This document shows, piece by piece, positions 24,801 to 52,383 of a stretch of 64,000 nucleotides of DNA. The position numbers were made by a program, and so were the translations under genes. Where the stretch lies: the NCBI RefSeq assembly GCF_009730915.1, contig NC_052489.1, positions 1,054,001-1,118,000 of the forward strand. The letters run 5' to 3'. Each line of letters starts with the position of its first letter. Within the stretch, counting starts at the first letter, position 1. The notes below the pieces were generated by a model. The model saw nothing but the letters and a program-made list of their open reading frames with translations, ran no database searches and was not told the DNA's origin. This stretch comes from Dioscorea cayenensis subsp. rotundata. Its lineage: Eukaryota; Streptophyta; Magnoliopsida; Dioscoreales; Dioscoreaceae.

Positions 24801-27800
24801 ATTTTTCTTTCCCCTATAATTCACCAGATTAACTTTTGAACATAGGAGTGTATTCATCCATTATAGAGTTGGTGCAAAAGGATAACCAAAAGATAATGAT
24901 GACAGAATATCACTTAAAGTTTCCAATAATTTTCACCTAAAGATCAAAATAAAGAATGTACCTCAAACCGAAGTGACTCTGCTTGGATAGGACTCCGCGT
25001 ATCAGTTTCTGCCAGTTCACAAATTTTACCATCAAAATTCTTTGGGGTAGTTGACTGCATTTCATCAGTCTGCATTAGCAAATTTAATGCCGTTCTTTCA
25101 AGAAGTGATGGAAACAGTGTAGTTCATCAGTATACATTACAGAACCATAAAGCCCCTTTAACTTGAAATCCAAAAAGTACCTCATGTGTCATATTCTCCA
25201 ACCATTTGATTTTTTCACAACCCTCATCTAGACTGTAACCACAAATATCACTTGACTGTCTATCTTTTGCAGTTAATGTTTGATTGCCTTCTAAATTTGA
25301 ACCCAGGGAAGAATAATCTTGTGTATCTGAATGAGAGATGTTATCCTGCCAGAACAGTATCAGAAGTCAAGTTTGAAAACATAAAGCAAAAGATAAATTA
25401 AGAAAATAAGATTAATAAGCCCGTAACAGCAGCTAAAATGCAAGACGGAAGAAATAGAGACATGCTAGAATTGTTGACCCCAAATTGGGGGCTACTGACC
25501 TGAACCAAGCCATCCTCATCAACACCAACAAAAGCAGCCATACTACCTTCAGATCTTTTAGATGTCTCATTAGACAACACTATGCTCTGCACCTTACTTT
25601 CATCTGCGATATCTGATATTTTATCAGCTCTTCAAGTATAATAAAACTTCAAAACGAAGGCGAAAATCACCTCCTATTTACAAATCATATCAACGTTTTT
25701 TTTCTCATGTGTACCTGCATTTTCAACATCCATGTTAATAGATGAAATGCCCATTCTCGCATCATCAGAGGCATTGATGGAGTAATCAAGCTGGCAAATT
25801 CCATCAACCTGAGATGAAAATTAGGGTTAAACTGGAAGTGAAGCAGAATAGGAGGCCCCATGAAAGCACAATGAGCTTTTCTATCATATTTGCTCACTGA
25901 TGTTATAGAAACACAGAATCCAATAACTAGATTACAGATACAGTGGTATACTTGATCACATCAAGCTTGTATACATCACCTGTATCTCTTTTACGGCATC
26001 AACTTTTCCATTGATCACAGATGAAACCCGGAAAAGGCTCTTATTTAGCTGCAACCAACGTGACTCATCTAATGAATCCTGGAATATGTTCAAGCCTATT
26101 GTTACACAACAAACACAAAAACAGTCAACAATATGACAACTAGACAAGACTACCTTCGCGCAAAAGATATATATATTCACGGCATTATTTTGTCCTCGTC
26201 TGTGGGCCCGATCCTCTGCCTTCACAAGTTGCAGCATACTTAGCATTTTAGTCATACAATAATTAAAATATAATCAGAAAAAGAAAGAAAATCTAAAGAT
26301 AGTTGGGATATAAAATGATCAAATTGATGAACAGATTACTCCAGAAAGTTGACATTTACATAGCAATATAAACCTGAAGCATTTCTGATGCAGATTTAGG
26401 CAGCTCCAAGAAAACAACATTTTGGGCAGAAGAGAAATCCAACCCAACACCCCCAGCAGTTATTCCAATAATTGCAATTTTGACCTGAAATATAATCACA
26501 TTAAACAATAGGTTCTAACGCACTAAGTTTCACAATGACAACTTCAAGGTTTTCCAGTTAATTTTATCATCATGTTGATGGTGAACAGAGGAGCAGAAGC
26601 AAACCTCTGACGATGAAATCTGAAAAGCTTTGACTGCCATTTTGCCTATCTCTAGCAACCTGCTCCCCATCACCCGAACAAATTTGATCTCCTCCTCACA
26701 TATAACTCCTAAAAGGGTTCAACATGAAATTCTATGCTGTGAAATAGATAATGGAAAGTTCCTTTATGGTGTGTGAAATCAGGACATGGACCACACAGTC
26801 TCACGATAAAACATAACCGAAAAGTTATTGTTACCAGATAAACATTCATGCACTAGGATGGATAGCACCTGTGCTTTAGAAAAATACCAAAAAGCTTAAG
26901 TTTTAGTAACGATTTTGCAGCTTTAACCATTACATTATCTCCTTTGCACTATGCACTAACAAACACTTTAACACCAAATTGCTTTATGACATCAGAACTC
27001 ATATTGTTGCCTAGGAAACTACACTTCTTTTTCTTCTTCCTTTACACTTTGCTGATTGTATAGTAGTTCTAAAANNNNNNNNNNNNNNNNNNNNNNNNNN
27101 NNNNNNNNNNNNNNNNNNNNNNNNNNNNNNNNNNNNNNNNNNNNNNNNNNNNNNNNNNNNNNNNNNNNNNNNNNNNNNNNNNNNNNNNNNNNNNNNNNNN
27201 NNNNNNNNNNNNNNNNNNNNNNNNNNNNNNNNNNNNNNNNNNNNNNNNNNNNNNNNNNNNNNNNNNNNNNNNNNNNNNNNNNNNNNNNNNNNNNNNNNNN
27301 NNNNNNNNNNNNNNNNNNNNNNNNNNNNNNNNNNNNNNNNNNNNNNNNNNNNNNNNNNNNNNNNNNNNNNNNNNNNNNNNNNNNNNNNNNNNNNNNNNNN
27401 NNNNNNNNNNNNNNNNNNNNNNNNNNNNNNNNNNNNNNNNNNNNNNNNNNNNNNNNNNNNNNNNNNNNNNNNNNNNNNNNNNNNNNNNNNNNNNNNNNNN
27501 NNNNNNNNNNNNNNNNNNNNNNNNNNNNNNNNNNNNNNNNNNNNNNNNNNNNNNNNNNNNNNNNNNNNNNNNNNNNNNNNNNNNNNNNNNNNNNNNNNNN
27601 NNNNNNNNNNNNNNNNNNNNNNNNNNNNNNNNNNNNNNNNNNNNNNNNNNNNNNNNNNNNNNNNNNNNNNNNNNNNNNNNNNNNNNNNNNNNNNNNNNNN
27701 NNNNNNNNNNNNNNNNNNNNNNNNNNNNNNNNNNNNNNNNNNNNNNNNNNNNNNNNNNNNNNNNNNNNNNNNNNNNNNNNNNNNNNNNNNNNNNNNNNNN

Positions 27801-30800
27801 NNNNNNNNNNNNNNNNNNNNNNNNNNNNNNNNNNNNNNNNNNNNNNNNNNNNNNNNNNNNNNNNNNNNNNNNNNNNNNNNNNNNNNNNNNNNNNNNNNNN
27901 NNNNNNNNNNNNNNNNNNNNNNNNNNNNNNNNNNNNNNNNNNNNNNNNNNNNNNNNNNNNNNNNNNNNNNNNNNNNNNNNNNNNNNNNNNNNNNNNNNNN
28001 NNNNNNNNNNNNNNNNNNNNNNNNNNNNNNNNNNNNNNNNNNNNNNNNNNNNNNNNNNNNNNNNNNNNNNNNNNCATTTTCTGATGCAGATTTAGGCAGC
28101 TCCAAGAAAACAACATTTTGGGCAGAAGAGAAATCCAACCCAACACCCCCAGCAGTTATTCCAATAATTGCAATTTTGACCTGAAATATAATCAATAAAC
28201 AATAGGTTCTAATGCAACAAGTTTCACAATGACAACCTCAAGGTTTTCCAGTTAATTTTATCATCAAGCTGATGAACAGAGGAGCAGAAGCAAACCTCTG
28301 ATGATGAACGAAAAGCTTCAACTGCCATTTGCCTATCTCTAGCAACTGTGCTCCCATCAATTCGAACAAATTTGATCTCCTTCTCACATATAAATTCCTA
28401 AAAGGGTTCAACATGAAATTCTATGCTGTGAAATAGATAATGGAAAGTTCCTTTAAAAAAAATGGTGTGAAACAGGACATGGACCACAGTCTCATGATAA
28501 AACATAACCGAAAAGTTATTGTTAAAACCAGATAACCATGCAATTAGATGGATAGCAATTCTTGCTTTAGAAAAAATACCAAAAAGCTTTAAGTTTTAGA
28601 ATGATTTTGCAGCTTTAACCATTGCTAATATTCCTTTCAAAAATTTAGTTCAATAAACACTTAACACTAAATTGCTTTATGACATCAGAACTCATATTGT
28701 TGCCTAGGAAACTACACTTCTTTTTCTTCTTCCTTTACACTTTGCTGATTGTATAGTAGTTCTGTTAAAAATTACTACCAGTAAAATTCTTAAAGCCACT
28801 CAATTGGAATAAAAGTAATGCCATTGAGGCAACAAGGGAGAATCATTGCATCATACAATGCTCACATGGTGCTAAAGAAATCAATGTTAACAACAAGAAA
28901 TCCTATGCCATATGATTCACCTGTACTTCATCAAGGACCTTTAAATGATGACCAAAAATGATCATTTTCTGGGAATTGAGTCCAACTTCTAAAGTGCTTG
29001 CATCCTCTGGTTCTCTTAGTATAAAATGGTTAGAAAACCACTCTCGGAATCCTGATAGCTTTGCCAAGCCAATCTCCTTATCAGATAGACTTTTTAAAGT
29101 TCTGTTACCTGGAATAATCATATAAATAATTAAATGGGAGCACACAAGGTAACAACTATAGACATGACATCTAAGATAAAAAAGAATTTGAGGCTATAAA
29201 AGAAGAACAAAACCCAAAAAAAAAGGTAAAATCCACAGATAGTAGTATAAGTAAATTATGCACCACATAAAGGAGCTCAAAATGTCCATTAAAGCCTTCT
29301 TATAAATGGCAGTGAATTTTAGGTAACAACAAAAAATACACAATAGATATGCTGCAAAAAATCCTGACGATCAGTGAAGCAGATAACCTCACTGGTAACA
29401 GTAAAAAGTTGGTTTTCAAGCTTAAGTGAAGAAATAACCATGGCATGTGTTTAAATTGACCACTTTTGCATCTCCACCATCATCACTTTTGTGACAGCAT
29501 TGATCTGTGATTGATTCATTCTGATTTTCTCTGCCCACAATAGCTTCTTGCACCTTGCTTGTTTTTGTTGCAAAAAGAATATCTGCTGCCTTCAGCATCA
29601 ATCTAATAATTTGACGGCGCTTGGGAGGCAACTGGGCCAATACATGTTCTTTAAGCCGCCTTATCTATGGCATGAAACAGGTTGAGTACAGTAAGAAACC
29701 ATAATACGAAGAAGAAGCCATATCATGAAAGATATCCAACAATCTCATAATAGGTATTCCAAACATTTTATCGCATGCTCTATTTTCTTCTGTTGTAATT
29801 TTTGTGTCAAAGGATGGAAAGTTTGTCTTCAGATATTCTAAAGGATACATTAGAAGGAAAATACAAACACTTCAATAAATGAAAAATAGATGGAACACAC
29901 ATAGCTTGAAATGATGTTTGTAAGAAGTTATATAGATATCACCAATGATAGAATGATCAACTACCACATGCGAGTACTATTAATCTATTACATATATCAA
30001 TGAGAAATTTTATGTATAATATATGTATGGAACACACATAGCTTGAAATGATGTTTGTAAGAAGTTATATAGATATCACCAATGATAGAATGATCAACTA
30101 CCACATGTGTGTACTATTACAAATATCAATGAGAAATTTTATGTATAATAAATGTATGGATCAAGTTTTTCAAGGAGTTCATTGTGTGCATTATCGCATT
30201 AGGAGGTAAACTTGTTGCACATAGTTCCCTATGTTGAAGCAAGAATCCTCAATCAATAAACATGTGTCAACACAAACTACAACACATCACCACAATCCAA
30301 GCTATTATGATTTCTCAACTCATAAGTTATTGAATACCACTAAAGCTTGAAGGTTTTATCCTCCAAGCAACACAGCTTCAGAGTCAAAACAAGAATCACA
30401 TCAGTTACTACATGTCTATCCAAAAATGACAATAGCAATGTAGATTATTGTATGTACGCTTTTATCAGGTCAATAAGTTCATTTGAGCACGTATCACAAA
30501 CTCATTCTGCAAGAAATGAAAAGCAGAATATCTAATCCTATGTTGATCAACATGTGAAAGTGCCGTGCCTTAATGGCCCAACTATGTTTCCTGTAGTAGA
30601 AAAGCCATAGATATCAAAACCCTAACAAGAATAAGAGCATGCAAATATAGCCAAGAGCAATGACCAAATTCATCTAGAACTTAATTTAGGTTTTGTTATT
30701 ATTACAGAAAGCATATAGCAAGTCCACAAACATATTTATTTATAAAGGAATGAAACAACTCAAAGTTGCATGGAGAATCAGATACATGTCACAACTCTGC

Positions 30801-50847: not shown

Positions 50848-51891
50848 AGCAGTCGAACCCGGATGTCATTGATCTTGTTGATAGCGTCTAGCAATGTCCA
50901 ACATACAAAACCTTTCACTTGCAAGGGCTTGCCTGCTGAACAAACTCGTAGGTTACTTTATCATGCTTGAAATTATTTACATAGATCAACATACGGCACG
51001 GCCAGAAATCAATGAAGGTTTTTGACATTTGATTCGTTTCGCAGGTACATCAAATTGTTTAGAGTATGAAAAGAAGCAATGATTCAAAGCTCAAAGTTGA
51101 TGTAAATGCTTAGTTATTATGTACTTTAAACTATGATCAAAATTATATATTAACCTGATGGGCAGCAAATCACTGTTGTTGCTTGACGTACCAAGTGATT
51201 TATTTTAAATTAAAGGGAGAAAAAGGATGTGTGGTTCTCTTTTTTTTCCTTTTACTTGATCTACTACTTTGGTGCATTTTGTATGGTTATATTTGATATT
51301 TTTTACAGCTTTTCAAGCAAAAAACAATTGGATCACAATATATGCATGGTGTCTCAATAAATTCTCTTCACTTGAATTTATTCTTCAGTTATTATTTTGG
51401 TTCTTTCTATTGGTTGTGTTAGCAATGTTGATGTAATTAAGCAGGCTATATACAATTACTCTGTGACTTTTTAAATTTCACTTGTTAGGATGTGGGTAAA
51501 TATTTTGATAGGGCACCAAACTATGTCACGACTCCAATTTGAATCAAAAATGGTTATTTAATTTTAATTTTATTTCACTGGATAATCACATGAGAGATTT
51601 TAGTATATTTTTTATGATATGATGTTACATATTTCTATCAGCATACGAGATAGAATTGTTAATTGGACAAGTAATGTGTCATGTATATTTTGACAGAGAA
51701 TTTTTAGTATTTATATTATAAAAAAATAGGTTAAAATCTCTCAGGTAACCAGCCAATAAAACAATAAGCTGGTAACCCGGTTTTTATTCTCTAAAAATCT
51801 AATTTTCAAGTACCTCCTACCCACCACCTGGTCAAGCCAGCATGTCAACACAATGACAACAAGATGTGGTAACAAAGAAACCATGTGTGTG
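50848..51891. other. E4 3'UTR and spacer
   Basis: It holds the 3'UTR of the E4 gene to about 51160, then AT-rich spacer. GTAC cores occur near 51189 and 51810. No coding sequence is seen. Confidence 0.5.
51810..51813 (+). promoter_or_regulatory. GTAC core, possible copper-response element upstream of the MIR398-like hairpin
   Basis: MIR398 promoters carry GTAC cores bound by the SPL7/CRR1 copper regulator (established). A single core lies about 160 bp upstream of the 5' arm. One 4-bp core is weak evidence on its own. Confidence 0.25.
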
Positions 51892-51902
51892 TATATATAT
51901 AA
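51892..51902 (+). promoter_or_regulatory. Candidate TATA box for the MIR398-like transcript
   Basis: TATATATATAA lies about 70-80 bp upstream of the hairpin's 5' arm, a spacing that would place transcript start near 51930. The segment is followed by an AGG run at 51921-51940. Confidence 0.4.
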
Positions 51903-51954
51903 GTTATGACAGAGCATCATGAGGAGGAGGAGGAGGAGGACCAGAAGAGAGATT

Positions 51955-52118
51955 GAAATAGAGAGTTAAATCCAAAGGAGTGGAATCTGGGAACACAGAT
52001 ATTCATATGATGATAGATGCATGCATTTGCATTTGCATTTGCTAATGCAATTTCTCTATCTTTTTTATTTGTGTTCTCAGAATCTCAGGTCACTCCTTTG
52101 GCTTGTCTCACTCTTTTT
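51955..52118 (+). ncRNA. MIR398: MIR398-like microRNA precursor hairpin (variant mature arm)
   Basis: The 5' arm (51972-51997) reads CCAAAGGAGTG then GAATCTGGGAACACA, close to the known miR398 passenger form GGnGYGnACTGRGAACACA. The 3' arm (52070-52101) reads TGTGTTCTCAG, AATCTCAG, GTCACTCCTTTGG. Without the central AATCTCAG it would be TGTGTTCTCAGGTCACTCCTT, the miR398 mature sequence with one change from the TGTGTTCTCAGGTCACCCCTT form. The arms pair over CCAAAGGAGTG/CACTCCTTTGG and GAATCTGGGAACACA/TGTGTTCTCAGAATC (one mismatch, one G:U), leaving an asymmetric bulge of about 6 nt in the 3' arm. Pairing extends outward (GAGAG with CTCnCTC) and inward (GATAG with CTATC, ATGCAT with ATGCA). The loop has a GCATTT microrepeat. 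miR398 normally targets copper superoxide dismutases and their chaperone under copper control. Whether this copy is processed is unknown. Confidence 0.6.
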
Positions 52119-52383
52119 TACCAAGTTGTGCATCATTCTCTCTTTTCTTCTTTTGATTGTTTCTTTGCCAGAGCTTGGTCTCTATTTTTATTTTATTTTA
52201 TTTTATTTCATATTCTTTTGTAAAAATATGTGTGTGATCTTACAAAATATAAAAATATTCGTGTGCAAGTGTGTTTTATATATAGCTTTTATTATCCTCT
52301 CTCTTCTAAATGCTGTTTTACCTTCTCCTCTTTTTATTATCTTTTAGATTTGATTTTGCTGCTGAGATGATAAGAAAAGAGAG

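Follow-up and report, generated by a model that had tools for sequence, protein, structure and literature searches.

The window, the whole 64,000-nt stretch of DNA analysed here, is contig 19:1054001-1118000 of the genome of white Guinea yam (Dioscorea rotundata). Two published primers for the sex marker of this species, sp16-F and sp16-R (PMC5604175), have exact matches in the genome that face each other on contig 11; in that paper the marker lies on pseudo-chromosome 11. For D. rotundata, PMC9010478 reports n = 20. It carries a MIR398a-type hairpin whose miR398-like 3' arm is lengthened by 8 nt. The features of the locus, by window position, are as follows.

51720..51764, + strand: dispersed repeat of 45 nt, some 200 nt upstream of the hairpin; 6 other matches lie on contigs 4, 5, 9, 12, 19 and 1257 (87-93% identity).
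51810..51813, + strand: single GTAC, at chance level (motif count).
51892..51902, + strand: TATA-like stretch, about 70-80 nt upstream of the main stem (consensus match only).
51943..52119, + strand: basal stem region in the extended minimum-energy fold, with 51943-51951 paired to 52111-52119 and 51961-51964 to 52106-52109.
51972..52101, + strand: MIR398a-type hairpin, main stem and loop (fold z -6.34; RF00695 30.4 bits over model positions 1-109, below the cut-off of 55; pair map).
51975..51997, + strand: 5' arm, miR398-5p-like, AAGGAGTGGAATCTGGGAACACA, near the printed ame-miR398-4 ggagugaaucugagaacacaag.
52070..52098, + strand: 3' arm, miR398-like, 29 nt rather than 21 (sequence, Rfam alignment).
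52075..52090, + strand: imperfect 8-nt tandem duplication TCTCAGAA / TCTCAGGT, 6 of 8 positions alike (sequence; insert simulation).
52085..52090, + strand: asymmetric bulge UCAGGU, 6 nt, within the miRNA duplex (unpaired probability 0.77-0.99).

Elsewhere in the window, ten ORFs chosen from the 58 listed (window 6935-62659) were scanned against Pfam, and nine gave a match. The matches comprise AAA (ClpB-like), PPR, F-box, RING, U-box, MinE, plastocyanin-like and DUF538; an SNF2 match reached 23.2 bits, under its cut-off of 24.9. Positions 27075-28074, amid SNF2-like exons, are exactly 1000 N and represent an assembly gap. The gene order of the window may resemble that of Arabidopsis At5g15350-At5g15450.

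The 164-nt stretch from 51955 to 52118 folds with an energy of -60.9 kcal/mol. Its 200 shuffles averaged -34.28 (sd 4.2), which gives z -6.34, and none of them was equally stable. The minimum-energy fold and the pair probabilities give an 11-bp stem (51972-51982 with 52091-52101) and a 16-bp stem (51986-52001 with 52066-52081). Between the two stems lie two weak base pairs (probability 0.66-0.67), one A-A mismatch and the 6-nt bulge. A52081 pairs with U51986 (probability 0.96), so that part of the 8-nt insert does pair with the 5' arm. Within the main stem, all 5'-arm positions from 51972 to 52001 are paired in the minimum-energy fold except 51985. Further down, the basal helix 51961-51964/52106-52109 has a pairing probability of about 0.27.

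The Rfam MIR398 model (RF00695) aligns end to end with the locus, with two inserts, one of 8 nt in the 3' arm and one of 2 nt in the 5' arm. The score of 30.4 bits (E 9.2e-5 in 701 nt, 0.0187 genome-wide) falls short of the cut-off, which is 55, and on the minus strand it drops to 22.4 bits. An Rfam scan of the whole window at the cut-off listed nothing. As a control, 6 of 14 prokaryote genomes match the MIR398 model at E up to 10, none of them over the cut-off. With the miR398a type of the family, which has a -CCUU end, the locus shares the 5' arm AAGGAGTGGAATCTGGGAACACA and the 3' arm TGTGTTCTCAG...GTCACTCCTT; it differs in the 8 extra nucleotides in the miRNA strand, the 6-nt asymmetric bulge and the sub-cut-off score. 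The 5' arm resembles ame-miR398-4, which is listed against gma-miR398b-5p in the available part of PMC6572118. That paper, with its related 5p, was the only one returned by a literature search for the -CACTCC- form and 5p variants; a separate search found no paper containing the interrupted miR398 sequence. A published lupin miR398, CGUGUUCUCAGGUCGCCCCUG, as it appears in the available part of its source, has no counterpart above the Rfam cut-off in the yam genome.

On the + strand, 52070-52101 of the 3' arm reads TGTGTTCTCAG-AATCTCAG-GTCACTCCTTTGG, so that the 21-nt miR398 is not contiguous there; TGTGTTCTCAGGTCACYCCTT has no match with up to three mismatches in the 64-kb window. The sequence-only reading had described a MIR398-like hairpin, an 8-nt interruption of its 3' arm, and a 5' arm that pairs on both sides of the insertion and with part of it, leaving an asymmetric bulge. 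The shuffles and the pair map confirm the hairpin and its pairing; the full-length MIR398 alignment with its 8-nt insert, though scored below the curated cut-off, supports the MIR398 likeness and the interruption. The extra nucleotides are best taken as part of a repeat, with TCTCAGAA at 52075-52082 as the first unit and TCTCAGGT at 52083-52090 as the second. The insert can be placed in more than one way, since the same letters are described by AATCTCAG at 52081-52088 and by TCTCAGAA at 52075-52082. A MAFFT alignment of the two yam MIR398 hairpins (the other is described below), which served solely to show this ambiguity, matched the second TCTCAGG copy, not the first, to the canonical miRNA, and its placement of the 5' arm was poor. 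Among 200,000 random 8-nt inserts, a repeated run of at least 6 bases at this period arose in 0.14%, and at least 6 of 8 matching positions in 1.3%. As random inserts seldom give such a repeat, random insertion appears less likely than either a tandem duplication whose units differ at two bases or a templated repeat to which 2 nt of filler were added.

The 8 nt could also be an assembly or consensus error, the true locus being an ordinary MIR398a-type gene without them. The assembly does have gaps, as at 27075-28074 (1000 N), and PMC9010478 mentions that the v2 assembly may be imperfectly ordered. A simple duplication artefact would not give repeat units that differ at two bases, however, and mixing of copies is unlikely because the hairpin part of a 481-nt query taken around it matches its own locus alone. 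The query found seven matches in the genome, namely itself and six of the upstream 45-nt dispersed repeat. We regard an error of this kind as unlikely.

A search of the whole genome (584.2 Mb, 2249 contigs) with the Rfam model scored 46 of 118,953 first-look candidates, so that further weak copies are possible. It returned five rows, two for a locus on contig 2 (both strands), two for the window locus (both strands) and one on C4. The C4 match (22.3 bits) was judged by eye, from its sequence, to be due to chance. The contig-2 locus (C2:22394206-22394295) is a canonical MIR398 hairpin with an intact 21-nt TGTGTTCTCAGGTCACCCCTG, scores 83.4 bits and is the sole locus passing the MIR398 cut-off in this search; contig 2 also holds the genome's single occurrence of TGTGTTCTCAGGTC. 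The two loci belong to the same family and have the TCTCAGGTCAC core in common, but the contig-2 gene, unlike the window locus, has an intact 21-nt miRNA, its high score and a cluster of GTAC motifs upstream.

This cluster consists of 4 GTAC in the 200 nt upstream of the contig-2 gene against 0.64 expected, a number reached in none of 500 shuffles; there are 5 in 300 nt (0.79 expected, P 0.002) and 5 in 1000 nt (1.91 expected, P 0.038). For the window gene, counts over 500 and 1000 nt upstream found no GTAC cluster of the kind expected for a copper-responsive MIR398 targeted by SPL7, with 4 in 1000 nt against 2.06 expected (P 0.13). A GTAC core and a TATA box had been pointed out upstream of the hairpin. 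The GTAC is present at 51810, but it carries no weight, being 1 in 500 nt where 1.34 are expected; the TATA-like stretch at 51892-51902 is there as a consensus match. The common TATA pattern matches at 51717 and 51892-51902 for the window gene and nowhere in the 300 nt upstream of the contig-2 gene. A scan for sigma-type promoters was set aside, its consensus being bacterial. According to PMC3882225, Arabidopsis miR398a is constant under copper conditions and its promoter is without the SPL7-binding motif (printed as GATC); in common bean, miR398a is scarce and does not change with copper stress. The window gene resembles the miR398a type described for these two species. The common bean observation, as reported there, implies that the loss of a MIR398a-type gene may be tolerable.

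For each of nine registers with a 21-nt 5' strand, the predicted 3' strand is 27 nt (2-nt overhangs). Table 1 of PMC12594335 sets two limits for a plant miRNA: asymmetric bulges of at most 3 nt, and strands between 20 and 24 nt long. By prediction the window duplex breaks both rules, with a bulge of 6 nt, twice that allowed, and a 3' strand of 27 nt. In PMC5322449, mir398b and mir398c are listed as base-to-loop processed. One close analogue is a rice mir398b TALEN line which, like the window locus, has an insertion inside the mature miR398 sequence; as described in the available part of PMC7292542, a 1-bp insertion there gave an abundant lengthened 22-nt form at a raised level. The rice mutation is induced, of 1 bp and has a 22-nt product, whereas the window locus has 8 nt and stands in a reference genome. 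Since the rice insertion raised miR398b, dicing is not necessarily prevented by an insertion in the duplex, a point that argues in part against plain loss. The well-paired 5' arm (all but 51985) in the modelled fold would also fit a hairpin still under selection. It is further conceivable, though we hold it to be doubtful, that the hairpin is transcribed and diced imprecisely into mixed 21-24-nt hairpin siRNAs without a specific role, a reading to which the long stem with its central bulge lends itself.

Target pairing was assessed on Sod_Cu exon matches fetched from 10 loci, with RNAduplex run on sites in 4 of the 10, chosen from a penalty scan. The names CSD1-like, CSD2-like and CCS-like are putative and follow from protein motifs. 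Canonical miR398 pairs with the CSD2-like exon encoding RHAGDLGN (two small contigs) at -30.1 kcal/mol, with the CCS-like exon encoding PLGDLGT at -31.2 kcal/mol and with the unspliced 5' UTR of the CSD1-like gene, where an intron splits the site, at -26.1 kcal/mol. The contig-2 gene has the promoter motifs and the complementary sites expected of a working copy. The first 21 nt of the window 3' arm give -13.8 kcal/mol on the CSD2-like site (34 and 47 of 200 shuffles as good for the two copies), -18.9 kcal/mol on the CCS-like site (2 of 200) and -20.0 kcal/mol on the unspliced CSD1-like site (1 of 200).

In the CSD1-like gene (contig 19:26558401-26561556), GAGAGGGGGTCACCTGAG precedes a GTAAG donor and AACACAGAAAACAATGG follows a TTTTAG acceptor; the split site lies at positions 613-630 and from 1150 onward of that stretch. 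From this arrangement, the full miR398 site looks to be carried by the spliced mRNA only. Contigs 1882 and 427 share the same CSD2-like exon stretch and site and are possibly unmerged haplotypes.

The gene might instead be functional and yield a re-registered or longer small RNA (21-24 nt) with new or shifted targets. The stem is well kept. On the CCS-like site a hypothetical product UCUCAGGUCACUCCUUUGGCU (52083-52103) would reach -31.0 kcal/mol, about equal to canonical miR398 (-31.2), and on the CSD2-like site -27.6 kcal/mol. Shifted products containing the core were equalled by 0-2 of 200 shuffles in RNAduplex, a result that shows only the retained miR398 core. Because of the bulge, no more than about 15 nt of the 5' arm would face UCUCAGGUCACUCCUUUGGCU. 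The penalty scan of the 10 Sod_Cu loci did not tell canonical and shifted products apart: the best score was 7.0 with canonical miR398, four window products reached 6.0, 7.0, 7.5 and 9.0, and 20 shuffled sequences scored 8-11. For the first 19 nt of the 3' arm, the genome has slightly more places with up to three mismatches (self included, whether in genes or not) than for the reversed control: 147 places, 77 of them forward and 70 reverse, compared with 121, of which 50 are forward and 71 reverse. Among the matches listed, every place apart from the own locus has at least two mismatches, and the excess was therefore taken as chance rather than as a sign of new targets. The 21-mer AATCTCAGGTCACTCCTTTGG, proposed from the sequence alone as a shifted small RNA with new targets, has near-matches at 4 genome places against 19 for its reversed control (same mismatch limit, self included), and that proposal found no positive support. 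On balance a functional, re-registered gene is improbable. The narrower proposal, that the micro-duplication shifted the register so that the second TCTCAGGT unit yields a precise RNA of 21-24 nt which still reaches CCS-/CSD-like sites or has new targets, appears very improbable to us; if true, it would be a natural re-registering of a deeply conserved miRNA by tandem duplication.

We favour, with a probability of about 0.68, a MIR398a-type gene that was broken by a micro-duplication and is now decaying or without function, while miR398 comes from the contig-2 gene. A short tandem duplication, its units (TCTCAGAA / TCTCAGGT) differing at two bases, would have added 8 nt to the miRNA strand, so that its expected ends enclose 29 nt instead of 21. 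Two DCL1 cuts would then release a 3' strand of about 27-29 nt, or the cuts would be imprecise, and little or no proper miR398 would be loaded on AGO1. The contig-2 gene would provide miR398 for the CSD- and CCS-like genes. Of the three readings first offered for the locus (a decayed copy, an assembly error or a precursor releasing a shifted small RNA), the decayed copy fits best, because an intact canonical MIR398 with a GTAC cluster exists on contig 2 and the predicted duplex breaks published rules; the shifted small RNA has no positive support. On the predicted structure, the window gene most likely no longer makes canonical miR398. The well-kept remaining stem suggests that the duplication was perhaps recent. 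Resequencing of 336 accessions is described in the available part of PMC7749330, and such data could tell a fixed from a segregating duplication.

If the duplication is real, the locus is a natural test of how far the duplex of a conserved plant miRNA can be disturbed; otherwise it counts as a decaying gene copy of the ordinary kind. By these searches, a real duplication would leave yam a single canonical miR398 gene to serve its copper economy and its handling of oxidative stress.
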